From contig NZ_CP014301.1 in NCBI RefSeq assembly GCF_001562255.1, positions 806,001 to 870,000 of the forward strand: 64,000 bases of DNA. Reading direction: 5' to 3'. This document shows positions 26,520 to 29,378 of this stretch, in pieces. The notes under the pieces are model-generated. The model saw nothing but the letters and a program-made list of their open reading frames with translations. It was not told where the DNA came from and did not search any database. Origin of the DNA: Bosea sp. PAMC 26642 (GTDB lineage: Bacteria > Pseudomonadota > Alphaproteobacteria > Rhizobiales > Beijerinckiaceae). Made by a program: the position numbers and the translations under genes. How positions within the stretch are numbered: the first letter of the stretch is position 1; every line of letters starts with the position of its first letter.

Positions 26520-27272
26520 ATGACCCGCCCCGTCCTCCTCGTCACCGGCGGCAGCCGCGGCATCGGTGCCGCCACCTGCATCCTGGCGGCCAAGCGCGGC
26601 TACGACGTCGCGGTCAACTATCAGGCCAACGCCCAGGCCGCCGCCGAAGTCGTGACCGCCTGCGAGGCGGCAGGCGCGAAAGCCTTCGCGATCCAGGGCG
26701 ACATGGCCAGCGCCACCGACATCATCCGCGTCTTCGCCGAGGCGAAGGCCGGGCTGGGGCCCCTGACCCATGTCGTCAACAATGCCGGCATCACCGGCAA
26801 GGCGAGCTCCCTGGCCGAGGCCGACACCGCCGTGATCCGCGCCTGCATCGACGTCAACGTCACCGGCGCGATCCTGGTGGCGCGGGAGGCGTCGCGCGCG
26901 CTTACCGCCAACGCCGATGCGCCCAACCGGGCCATCGTCAACATCTCCTCGGCAGCGGTCACCCTCGGCTCGCCCGGCGAATTCGTCTGGTATGCCGCCT
27001 CCAAGGGTGCGATCGATTCCCTCACCATCGGGCTGGCGAAGGAACTGGCTCCGGCCGGCATTCGCGTCAACGCGGTCGCGCCCGGCATGACCGAGACCGA
27101 CATTCACGCGATGTCTTCGGGCGAGCCCGGCCGCGTCGCCCGCATCGCCCCGACGATCCCGCTCAAGCGCGTCGCGACGCCCGACGAGATCGCCGAGTCG
27201 ATCCTGTTCCTGATGTCCGACGCCTCGGCCTACACGACGGGCATCGTCCTGCGCGTCGCCGGCGGGCGTTAG
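26520..27272 (+). CDS. short-chain dehydrogenase/reductase (SDR)
   Basis: This is a 250-residue classical SDR. The cofactor motif TGGSRGIGAATC lies at the N-terminus with no acidic residue in the key beta2 position (NYQANAQ), which suggests NADP(H). NNAG appears as VVNNAGITG; the catalytic Ser-Tyr-Lys comes from NISSAAV and WYAASKGAID. The C-terminal block TTGIVLRVAGGR is typical of FabG-like sugar or ketone reductases. The substrate is unknown. Confidence 0.92.
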   Translation: MTRPVLLVTGGSRGIGAATCILAAKRGYDVAVNYQANAQAAAEVVTACEAAGAKAFAIQGDMASATDIIRVFAEAKAGLGPLTHVVNNAGITGKASSLAEADTAVIRACIDVNVTGAILVAREASRALTANADAPNRAIVNISSAAVTLGSPGEFVWYAASKGAIDSLTIGLAKELAPAGIRVNAVAPGMTETDIHAMSSGEPGRVARIAPTIPLKRVATPDEIAESILFLMSDASAYTTGIVLRVAGGR

Positions 27273-27344
27273 CTCATTGCTTCGCTGCGCTCCTCGCATT
27301 GTCGGTGGGTTTTCACGCACGCGCCACTGCGATACCGGTGATCC

Positions 27345-27626
27345 ATGCGTGTCATTCTCATCCTCATCGCCTTCGGCATGATCGCCGTGCCGGCCCTGCT
27401 GGCGCTCTCGCGCGGCGACCGGCCCCGCGGCCGCCGCATCGCCGACGCGCTGATCATCTTCGTGACGCCGGCGATCGCGCTTGGCCTGATCCATGGCGTG
27501 CCGGAGCTCGACGGCCGGGCGCTGCAAAATCCCGTCGTCTGGACGACGTTGCGGCTCGTGCTCTCGTCGCTCGCCCTGATCCTGCCCTGGTGCCTTTACG
27601 TCTGGCTGTCGCGCCCGCGCCGTTGA
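27345..27626 (+). CDS. small membrane protein of unknown function
   Basis: This is a 93-residue protein with three hydrophobic segments: VILILIAFGMIAVPALLAL, ALIIFVTPAIALGLIHG and LVLSSLALILPWCLYVWL. A basic loop (RGDRPRGRR) between the first two predicts a cytosolic loop. No family is recognised. It stands alone between the SDR and the SnoaL-like gene on the same strand. Confidence 0.6.
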   Translation: MRVILILIAFGMIAVPALLALSRGDRPRGRRIADALIIFVTPAIALGLIHGVPELDGRALQNPVVWTTLRLVLSSLALILPWCLYVWLSRPRR

Positions 27627-27767
27627 CGCTGAATGCTCGGTGCACCGATGACCGAACGGATCCGCTAAAGGGCGGAATCGGCTTGCGAACAAACCGCGCC
27701 AAGTCTCTAATCCAGGTCCAGAATTTACAGCTCGAACGCTCGCCGGCGCTATCGGCAGGGTACCGCG

Positions 27768-28214
27768 ATGATGCCTGACCTGACGCCGGAGCAGAGTTTC
27801 CCCGCCGCGCTCGCACGGTTGCGGGCCGCGCTCGGCGATGTCGCCAATGGCGACGTCGCGGCGATCAAGGCGCTGTACTCGCACAGCGACGAGGCCACGA
27901 GTTTCTACGGCTGGGGCGGCTACGAGAAGGGCTGGGACGCGGTCTCGAACCGCTGGGACTGGGCACAGCAGCAGTTCAGGGGCGGCACGGTCAGGCACGA
28001 CAACGTCACCACCGTGGTCGGGGCGGAGCTTGCCCTCGTCACCGACATCGAGATGTTCGAGGTTGTGATGGCGGAAAACGCCGAGCCCTCGCGCTGGACC
28101 AACCGGGTCACGCATGTCTTCCGCTTCGAGCAGGGCGGCTGGCGCCTGCTGCATCGTCACGCCAACCGGCTGGAGGGCCGCTACGAGCCGGCGCCGCGCC
28201 TGAATGCGCGCTAG
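27768..28214 (+). CDS. SnoaL/NTF2-like (DUF4440) protein
   Basis: This is a 148-residue alpha+beta-barrel protein with the layout of SnoaL-3/DUF4440: an N-terminal helix (FPAALARLRAALGDVANGDV), then IKALYSHSDEATSFYGWGGYEKG, a strand pair VTTVVGAELALVTDIEMFEV and the terminal VTHVFRFEQGGWRLLHRHAN. Members include small hydrolases, isomerases and non-enzymatic ligand binders, so no reaction is assigned. Two ATG codons in tandem start it. The argC promoter begins 14 bases after its stop. Confidence 0.85.
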   Translation: MMPDLTPEQSFPAALARLRAALGDVANGDVAAIKALYSHSDEATSFYGWGGYEKGWDAVSNRWDWAQQQFRGGTVRHDNVTTVVGAELALVTDIEMFEVVMAENAEPSRWTNRVTHVFRFEQGGWRLLHRHANRLEGRYEPAPRLNAR

Positions 28215-28227
28215 CCGCATCAGCCGA

Positions 28228-28256
28228 TTGACAGGCGCGCCATCCGCGAACATATA
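28228..28256 (+). promoter_or_regulatory. promoter of the argC attenuator
   Basis: TTGACA (28228-28233) and CATATA (28251-28256) are exactly 17 bases apart. The predicted start near 28263 coincides with the A of the leader-peptide ATG, so the leader mRNA is probably leaderless. Confidence 0.78.
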
Positions 28257-28262
28257 CGCGTC

Positions 28263-28322
28263 ATGATCACGAACCCGACCCGACGTCGCAACGAACAGGC
28301 CGCCCCGGCGCGCTTGCGATGA
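28263..28322 (+). CDS. 19-residue arginine-rich leader peptide of argC
   Basis: The peptide reads MITNPTRRRNEQAAPARLR. Five of 19 codons are Arg, including a CGA-CGT-CGC run at 28281-28289. It lies downstream of a strong promoter and upstream of a U-tailed hairpin before argC, an arginine biosynthesis gene. Low charged tRNA-Arg would stall a ribosome at the triple Arg codons. The codons overlap RNA segments that pair alternatively: TCGCAA (28286-28291) with TTGCGA (28314-28319), and CGCGCTTG (28309-28316) with CAAGCGCG in the terminator. This is the layout of a classical amino-acid attenuator. Confidence 0.72.
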   Translation: MITNPTRRRNEQAAPARLR

Positions 28323-28350
28323 CGCTCGGCTTTTAGTCCGATCGTTCGCG

Positions 28351-28375
28351 ACCGCGCCCCAAGCGCGGTTTTTTT
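28351..28375 (+). terminator. attenuator (U-tailed hairpin) before argC
   Basis: ACCGCGC (28351-28357) and GCGCGGT (28363-28369) pair around CCCAA, followed by seven T (28369-28375). Bases 28360-28367 (CAAGCGCG) are also perfectly complementary to 28309-28316 in the leader-peptide frame, so the terminator and an antiterminator are mutually exclusive. Confidence 0.85.
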
Positions 28376-28442
28376 ATGCCTGAAGCCGACCAAGTACTTC
28401 GACCTTGCAAGCACCCAGCTTTCGCACCCATCGGGGGTCCAG

Positions 28443-29378
28443 ATGAGCCAGAATTTGAAATCCATCTTCATCGACGGCGAGGCCGGCACGACCGGCCTCG
28501 GCATCCGCGACAGGCTCGCGGCCGTGCCGGAGGTGGCGGTCAAGAGCATCGCAGCGGACAAGCGCAAGGACCCCGCGGCCCGCAAGGACATGATGGCCTC
28601 GGTCGATCTCGTCGTGCTCTGCCTGCCCGACGACGCGGCCCGGGAGTCGGTCGCGCTGGCCGACGAACTCGGCGCTGGTTCGCCGAAGATCGTCGATGCC
28701 GCGACCGCCCATCGCGTCGCGCCCGGCTGGGTCTACGGCTTCGCCGAACTCGAACCCGGTCATGCCGACAGGATCGCCAACGCTAACCGCGTCTCGAACC
28801 CCGGCTGCTACCCCACGGGCGGCATCGCGCTGCTGCGGCCGCTGGTCGATGCGGGGCTGATCGCGCCCGATCATCCCGTCGCGGTCAATGCGGTCTCGGG
28901 CTATTCCGGCGGCGGCAAGTCGATGATCGAGGCCTATGAAGCCGGCACCGCGCCCGCCTTCGAACTCTATGGCCTGGGCCTGCATCACAAGCACCTGCCG
29001 GAGCTGCAGCTCTATTCGCGGCTGACGCGGCGCCCGATCTTCGTGCCCTCGGTCGGCAATTTCCGGCAGGGCATGCTGGTCTCGATCCCGCTGCATCTCG
29101 ACTTGCTTCCGGGCAAGCCGAAGGTCGCCGACCTGCATGACGCGCTCGCCGCCCGCTATGCCGGCTCCACCTATGTCAGCGTGGTCCAAGGCGCCGAGGC
29201 CGGTGGCAAGCTTGAGCCCGAGGCGCTGAACGAGACCAACAAGCTGGAACTGCGCGTCTTCGGCGACGATGCACTCGGCCAGGCGGTTCTGATCGCCAGG
29301 CTCGACAACCTCGGCAAGGGCGCGTCCGGCGCCGCCGTCCAGAACATCCGGCTGATGCTGGGGCTTACGGAGGGGTAG
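28443..29378 (+). CDS. argC: N-acetyl-gamma-glutamyl-phosphate reductase, short type
   Basis: ArgC reduces N-acetylglutamyl phosphate to the semialdehyde, the third step of arginine synthesis. The 311-residue length is the short (type 2) form. It has an NADP-binding start (SIFIDGEAGTTGLGIRDRL), the catalytic Cys in NPGCYPTGGIALLRPL, and AVSGYSGGGKSMIEAYE. His of the active site is in YGLGLHHKHLPEL. The ATG at 28443 is 68 bases after the attenuator. It stands as a single gene; the convergent FAH gene follows across an inverted repeat. Confidence 0.95.
   Translation: MSQNLKSIFIDGEAGTTGLGIRDRLAAVPEVAVKSIAADKRKDPAARKDMMASVDLVVLCLPDDAARESVALADELGAGSPKIVDAATAHRVAPGWVYGFAELEPGHADRIANANRVSNPGCYPTGGIALLRPLVDAGLIAPDHPVAVNAVSGYSGGGKSMIEAYEAGTAPAFELYGLGLHHKHLPELQLYSRLTRRPIFVPSVGNFRQGMLVSIPLHLDLLPGKPKVADLHDALAARYAGSTYVSVVQGAEAGGKLEPEALNETNKLELRVFGDDALGQAVLIARLDNLGKGASGAAVQNIRLMLGLTEG

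Follow-up and report, generated by a model that had tools for sequence, protein, structure and literature searches.

The window, as the whole 64,000-nucleotide stretch of Bosea sp. PAMC 26642 is called here, contains the arginine biosynthesis gene argC behind a compact leader region that combines a promoter, a short open reading frame (ORF) and an intrinsic terminator. The elements of this region are as follows:

28228..28233, forward strand: -35 element TTGACA, read from the sequence; TTGAC(A/G) in 36/36 Bosea loci
28251..28256, forward strand: -10 element CATATA after a 17-nt spacer, read from the sequence; CATAT(A/C) with a spacer of 17 in 36/36 Bosea loci
28263..28322, forward strand: leader ORF MITNPTRRRNEQAAPARLR, 19 codons plus TGA, with its ATG at the predicted transcription start (leaderless)
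28281..28289, forward strand: arginine control codons CGA-CGT-CGC, invariant in 35/35 Bosea leaders
28280..28289, forward strand: segment 1, CCGACGTCGC, with 10 pairs to segment 2 in 34/34 distinct Bosea leaders
28308..28330, forward strand: segment 2, spanning the 3' end and stop codon of the leader ORF, pairing with segments 1 and 3
28344..28357, forward strand: segment 3, the 3' side of the antiterminator, whose terminal part also serves as the terminator's 5' arm; 12/12 pairs in 34/34 distinct Bosea leaders
28350..28370, forward strand: segments 3 and 4, intrinsic terminator hairpin, 8/8 pairs in 34/34 distinct Bosea leaders
28369..28375, forward strand: U7 tract, read from the sequence; invariant in 34/34 distinct Bosea leaders
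28443..29378, forward strand: argC, N-acetyl-gamma-glutamyl-phosphate reductase of the short type (TIGR01851 argC_other, 394.1 bits against a cut-off of 229.85)

The leader ATG lies 6 nt behind the -10 element, and 67 nt separate the U tract from the start of argC. A sequence-only reading of the window had named a promoter, an ATG, a peptide with CGA-CGT-CGC, two complementary pairs (TCGCAA at 28286 with TTGCGA at 28314, and CGCGCTTG at 28309 with CAAGCGCG at 28360), a hairpin with U7, and argC, and all of these elements are present at the positions it gave. Upstream, rpsI is separated from the leader by two genes (26520-28214), one for an SDR protein and one for a small SnoaL-like protein; the latter gene (27768-28214) ends 13 nt 5' of the -35 element. 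Downstream, an ATG directly follows the U tract in 33/35 Bosea leaders (window 28376-28442 and equivalents). The ORF opened by this ATG was considered as a second conserved ORF and rejected, its frame and length not being kept. Six Bosea leaders (L004, L005, L006, L107, L109 and L110) show an inverted repeat, GTCGCAAAA...TTTTGCGAC, after the U tract, which is imperfect in some of them.

Taken singly, the window leader gives weak statistics. A terminator scan found one site at the leader against 0.5 +/- 0.6 in shuffles, the leader folds mildly better than its shuffles (z -1.50, for a single sequence), and a promoter scanner listed nothing at this position, CATATA failing its rule for the second hexamer. 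An Rfam scan of the window returned two tRNAs only and no leader family; the best weak match at the leader reached 18.7 bits, below the gathering score of 49.5. It is comparison that raises the leader above chance, because 36/36 Bosea loci keep the architecture.

These 36 argC loci comprise the window's own, six Bosea records and 29 other genomes of the genus, and they represent 34 distinct leaders, as two of the records duplicate two of the genomes. The window argC is 85-89% identical to the argC genes of the six records. All 36 loci show TTGAC(A/G)-17-CATAT(A/C), then an ATG where the RNA is predicted to begin, a reading frame of 19 residues, and the hairpin with U7. The first ATG 6-8 nt after the -10 element starts the 19-residue peptide in 35/36 loci; in the remaining one (L095), an out-of-frame ATG lies 3 nt after the -10 element and the correct ATG 4 nt further. 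Codons 7-9 are CGA-CGT-CGC in 35/35 Bosea leaders (the 34 and L112), and codons 2-6 and 10-12 differ in amino acid. Within Bosea, the leader is near-universal: it lies upstream of argC in 36 of the 37 genomes surveyed, 30 of which were already in the 36-locus set, and the rest consist of three leaders with a diverged peptide (L262-L264) and three of the usual kind (L265-L267). L112 is a further Bosea leader beyond those 36 genomes. For the sole Bosea genome without a leader before argC (G030), only a distant argC relative was found. Loss of the Arg codons or of the terminator/antiterminator pair in homologues, which would speak against attenuation, is not what the genus displays: Bosea keeps the Arg codons, the terminator, the pairings, the ATG at the leaderless position, and argC. 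Arg runs, terminator, and promoter spacing are also found in other genera and before argD.

Outside Bosea, the same architecture with diverged peptides precedes short-type argC (Microvirga, Salinarimonas, and others), long-type argC (Phreatobacter), argD, and one RidA-type gene. Among 74 non-Bosea argC loci, leaders were recognized in L010, L014, L021, L027, L028, L038, L049, L050, L070, and L079, with L075 doubtful; Bradyrhizobium contributes two in 21 argC loci (L050 and L079) and Methylobacterium none in 11. A covariance model built from 17 leaders (R1) matched at E <= 0.01 in 64 of 347 genomes of the order, and the 30 loci inspected comprised 17 leaders and 13 loci that are not. The long-type argC (TIGR01850, 415.6 bits for L127) stands behind the leader in 11 genomes of one genus; relatives of this ArgC include proteins of a Phreatobacter sp. 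(94% identical) and of Phreatobacter aquaticus (91%). Across 385 genomes of the class, six had an R1 match at E <= 5e-4 (five leaders, one not), and the six matches at this threshold in 299 genomes of the phylum were the window's own and five non-leaders; there, the window's site alone scored better than 4e-5, the best non-leader having E = 4.2e-5. Within the same family, R1 matched nothing in 14 genomes of other genera. Direct reading of argC-upstream DNA yielded four leaders among the 115 regions from the class (L245, L250, L255, and L222, whose terminator is weak; L253 is doubtful) and two in 84 regions of the order survey (L296 and L338), one of them too short to judge, the scans relying on Arg-run filters that diverged leaders can escape. 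Upstream DNA of L279 was too short for judgement. Most alphaproteobacterial argC-upstream regions examined had no leader; a few lineages have the element often, and most do not have it.

Several kinds of candidates were discarded along the way. Low-scoring covariance-model matches turned out to be plain terminators or coding DNA (13/30 inspected loci of the order survey, 6/23 loci in the G310 family, 3/4 loci in the L115 family, and the five phylum matches besides the window's). Many matches of the argC-upstream scan were the C-terminus of ribosomal protein S9 (rpsI) with its terminator and were set aside by eye. In L075 and L253, a terminator and an ORF containing Arg codons are present, but no promoter was found at the expected position. 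Where the leader is absent, many alphaproteobacteria (e.g. L144, L147, and L171) have argC directly after rpsI and its terminator.

In the G310 family (39 genomes), leaders were found in 12 genomes, and 17 of the 23 listed loci are leaders. In five genomes (G310, G535, G548, G551, and G560), argC and argD are each preceded by a leader of their own, complete with promoter, Arg codons, and terminator; one leader of this paired set (L372) has Arg-Gly-Arg and no run. NCBIfam assigns the five paired argD genes to acetylornithine transaminase (NF002325, 596-625 bits against a cut-off of 372) and the five paired argC genes to TIGR01851 (398-422 bits, all over the cut-off). A sixth genome has an argD leader before an interrupted gene (L379:713-1390), which is stopped by TGA after 226 argD-matching residues; the assembly is 77% complete, and the interruption may stem from a sequencing error, gene decay, or recoding. 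In L115 (598-1417), the leader is followed by a RidA-family gene (PF01042) and then by a gene whose product carries the domains PF13840 and PF21631 (ACT_7/A9CJY8-like_N), and a possible tie of these two to arginine sensing is worth a look; within the L115 family, just one of eight genomes has the leader before the RidA gene. With the exception of this RidA-type gene, the genes behind the leaders belong to the arginine pathway (argC and argD by NCBIfam). Since two arginine genes bear the same device in one genome, and this five times, a chance ORF is not a ready explanation.

For the comparisons that follow, 78 leaders (35 from Bosea and 43 others) were extracted by their terminator pattern; the hairpin is present in 78/78, in a set selected by that very pattern (L222 and L262 were dropped as unmatched). 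Also left out were L264 and L265 (start string unmatched), L125 and L266 (not added), L263, L267, L296, and L357 (same genome or leader as L014, L006, L127, and L010, respectively), and L098 and L104 (repeats of L003 and L004). L379-L382 were found after this set, L380-L382 being L245, L250, and L255 once more. A second alignment, intended for a broader model, placed the Phreatobacter leaders wrongly and was not used for model building.

A -35-like hexamer starts 34-39 nt 5' of the ATG in 76 of the 77 leaders with 50 nt of upstream DNA (34 nt in one, 35 in 26, 36 in 39, 37 in seven, 38 in two, and 39 in one); the background is 62/2188 ATGs (2.8%) of argC-upstream regions, true leaders included. 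The promoter served as a filter when some loci were picked, but not for the 35 Bosea leaders or the 28 finds of the promoter-free covariance model, and the hexamer lies at this distance in 35/35 of the former and 28/28 of the latter (L112 is in both). The single leader of the 77 without it is L075 (Stella vacuolata). Shine-Dalgarno-like 4-mers occur in just 3/77. Hexamer distance and the 17-nt spacer together place the start at or beside the A of the ATG, so that an RNA beginning at the leader AUG is predicted. The available text on the trp attenuator of S. meliloti (trpL/rnTrpL) describes a leaderless RNA starting at the leader AUG (PMC7298713, PMC10117765), which makes a leaderless leader plausible in this group.

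Two or more consecutive Arg codons are found in 77/78 leaders. Outside Bosea, 42/43 have such a run in the leader frame versus eight and seven in the other frames, with some loci picked by an Arg-run filter, and the share of Arg codons is 0.307 in the leader frame, 0.130 in the +1 frame, and 0.102 in the +2 frame. The corresponding shares in Bosea are 0.279, 0.279, and 0.084, and the equality of the leader and +1 frames cuts against the frame argument. A short ORF with at least three consecutive Arg codons followed by a terminator occurs in 13 of 130 argC-upstream regions (nine judged leaders) and the same arrangement for each of the 19 other residues in at most two of 130, a rough control given that Arg codons are frequent in GC-rich DNA. 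The runs are built from CGA, CGC, and CGT, with CGG accounting for 2/233 run codons (105 from Bosea, 128 from others); among the Arg codons of 30 window ORFs, CGG makes up 24%, CGA 5%, and CGT 7%. CGA, CGU, and CGC are decoded by one inosine-containing tRNA; given the near absence of CGG from the runs, the charging of just this isoacceptor may be what the leader senses. The codon choice can be explained equally well by the pairing of segment 1. It appears evenly balanced whether several lineages of Hyphomicrobiales, in which ArgR is reportedly missing, govern arginine biosynthesis by a dispersed attenuation regulon, with copies of one leaderless attenuator before argC, argD, and sometimes a RidA/ACT-domain operon, that senses the charging of tRNA-Arg(ICG) alone. 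A natural codon variant exists in the leader of Microvirga sesbaniae (L038:2791-2902), where Arg-Arg-Cys replaces the Arg triplet. The last residue of the peptide is Arg in 76/78 leaders, for which segment pairing may be the reason.

Consensus folding of the 34 distinct Bosea leaders gave three structures. The 1:2 helix joins CCGACGTCGC with GCGATG...TCGG and has a small inner stem (99.6% of cells paired), the 2:3 antiterminator has 12 pairs, and the 3:4 terminator has eight (100% of cells paired in both); when the partners are slid by 1-3 columns in the Bosea alignment, paired cells drop to 14-63%. The antiterminator pairs of the window are 28308-28312/28353-28357, 28315-28318/28347-28350, and 28328-28330/28344-28346. 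In Bosea, the 1:2, 2:3, and 3:4 pairings are mutually exclusive and placed so that stalling would free segment 2. The pairings proposed from the window alone need revision in this light. The TCGCAA/TTGCGA match is real in the window but kept across Bosea just as GTCGC/GCGAT, the conserved 1:2 helix being the one given above, and the full 8 bp of CGCGCTTG/CAAGCGCG likewise need letters that are absent from most other Bosea leaders. Segment 2 does pair with a terminator arm, as had been suggested, but the conserved partner is the 5' arm and not mainly the 3' arm. An alignment of leaders, advised in the same reading, bears out the conservation of the Arg codons; the stems hardly vary and two-sided (compensatory) changes are absent from the 34 distinct Bosea leaders, so that covariation within the genus speaks neither for nor against the pairing model. 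At its outer end, the terminator stem closes with an A-U pair in Bosea and with a G-C pair in most other genera.

The behavior of these structures was modeled by masking the RNA to 12 nt past the first A-site nucleotide (an assumed mask size) and computing the equilibrium probability of the terminator; as a control, the stretch between mask and terminator was shuffled 30 times per leader. For the 35 Bosea leaders, placing the first Arg codon of the run in the A site gives a predicted terminator probability of 0.11, placing the last one there gives 0.06, and placing the stop codon there gives 0.95, compared with 0.73 in the shuffled control. All 35 stalled leaders lie under their own shuffle mean, 32 of them in the lowest tenth. 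The 43 non-Bosea leaders give 0.54, 0.62, and 0.92, respectively, versus 0.83 for shuffles; 25/43 lie under the shuffle mean when stalled (22 in the lowest tenth) and 18/43 do not. With the ribosome at the stop codon, the terminator probability exceeds 0.7 in 76/78 leaders, the modeled value for L362 and L363 being 0 even then. Textbook attenuator RNA is expected to terminate without a ribosome; here, ribosome-free RNA gives probabilities anywhere from 0 to 1 (28/78 below 0.3, 36/78 above 0.7). In this equilibrium model, the Bosea leaders switch clearly, and a switch is seen in about half of the others.

Taken together, the region before argC is very probably an arginine-specific transcription attenuator of the classical ribosome-mediated type. 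RNA polymerase would start at the AUG or within one or two nucleotides of it, and a ribosome would load on the leaderless RNA. With ample charged tRNA-Arg, the ribosome would pass the Arg codons, reach UGA, and cover segment 2; segments 3 and 4 would then form the terminator, and argC would not be transcribed. With charged tRNA-Arg scarce, it would stall on CGA-CGU-CGC and thereby cover segment 1, leaving segment 2 to pair with segment 3, so that no terminator would form and polymerase would enter argC. Attenuation, as proposed by the sequence-only reading, is supported by conservation in Bosea, recurrence before argD, and the folding switch in Bosea, with corrected pairing details and with the switch in 25/43 of the other leaders.

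Three other explanations were considered. The leader RNA or peptide might act mainly in trans, the terminated transcript serving as a small RNA or yielding a functional peptide, and cis control of argC would then be secondary; this is unlikely, though it has a precedent in S. meliloti trp, where rnTrpL and peTrpL act in trans according to the accessible text (PMC7298713). The terminal Arg of 76/78 leaders and the well-kept Bosea C-terminus AAPARPR would fit a functional peptide, but the C-terminal codons sit in segment 2, where pairing can account for their conservation irrespective of any peptide function, and the non-Bosea peptides have little in common except Arg residues. A nascent peptide that itself responds to free arginine or ornithine by halting the ribosome at the stop codon, which would favor the terminator at high arginine, is very improbable. 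The speF leader peptide is arrested by ornithine, which counts in favor of such an arrest, as does the Arg immediately before the stop in those 76 leaders. Salmonella orf34 has two consecutive Arg codons and one beside the stop, but the latter is dispensable for arginine control as far as the available part of that report goes (PMC6386406), and in the present leaders the residues before the last Arg vary among lineages (AAPARPR, ILIQR, and PRLR).

The simplest alternative, a plain intrinsic terminator of the upstream unit with a chance ORF, can draw on the weak single-sequence statistics and on the position of argC after rpsI and a terminator in many alphaproteobacteria. Genus-wide invariance, the Arg runs, the promoter spacing, and the recurrence before argD contradict it; it retains next to no probability and is rejected on conservation and recurrence. 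The arginine-specific attenuator remains the preferred reading, and the leader represents a concrete candidate for a cis-acting arginine sensor in alphaproteobacteria.

Attenuation of argC had been described as not being an established textbook case, and no report of attenuation in arginine biosynthesis was found in the open-access literature; subscription papers could contain one. The words "arginine" and "argC" are absent from the main text of PMC2965389, "argC" is absent from the available text of PMC1273637, PMC7298713, and PMC10117765, and the accessible part of PMC1262725 names arginine twice, one mention falling under T-boxes. The arginine biosynthesis genes repressed by the DNA-binding protein ArgR include argC and, in some taxa, argD; as far as the consulted sections of a survey go that covered 33 regulators across 196 genomes of proteobacteria, many gammaproteobacteria keep ArgR and other classes lack it (PMC5343134). 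By our own reading, which is not that paper's, the control of arginine genes in alphaproteobacteria hence looks open. The arginine specificity of this probable classical attenuator is new, and it occurs in a class in which ArgR is reportedly missing. Arginine would thereby join the amino acids with a transcription attenuator ahead of biosynthetic genes, the leader would be a further leaderless attenuator of the group besides trpL, and the paired argC/argD leaders suggest that attenuators can make up a regulon without a regulator protein.

The leader-peptide attenuators for trp, his, leu, ilv, thr, and phe in Proteobacteria combine control codons with 1:2, 2:3, and 3:4 pairings, and the argC leader follows the same logic with a different amino acid. 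Arginine is reportedly not among the amino acids covered by the survey of Vitreschak et al. from 2004. The ArgR regulon includes argC and, in some taxa, argD (PMC5343134, in the part available), before which the arginine leaders also stand; ArgR operates as a repressor protein on DNA, the leaders would operate as cis-acting RNA. The S. meliloti trp attenuator is likewise alphaproteobacterial; as the accessible text has it, it shows the leaderless RNA, the exclusive antiterminator/terminator pair and the stalling at control codons that are predicted for the argC leader, but has Trp codons and trpE as its target (PMC7298713, PMC10117765). In the Salmonella speF leader, two consecutive Arg codons of orf34 sense arginine availability (PMC6386406, in the portion available), and consecutive Arg codons in an upstream ORF are shared by the argC leader, for which arginine sensing is predicted. 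The same portion describes for speF an ornithine decarboxylase target, Rho, RNase G, occlusion of the ribosome-binding site, and a long leader with a Shine-Dalgarno sequence, whereas the argC leader has an intrinsic terminator and precedes a biosynthetic gene.
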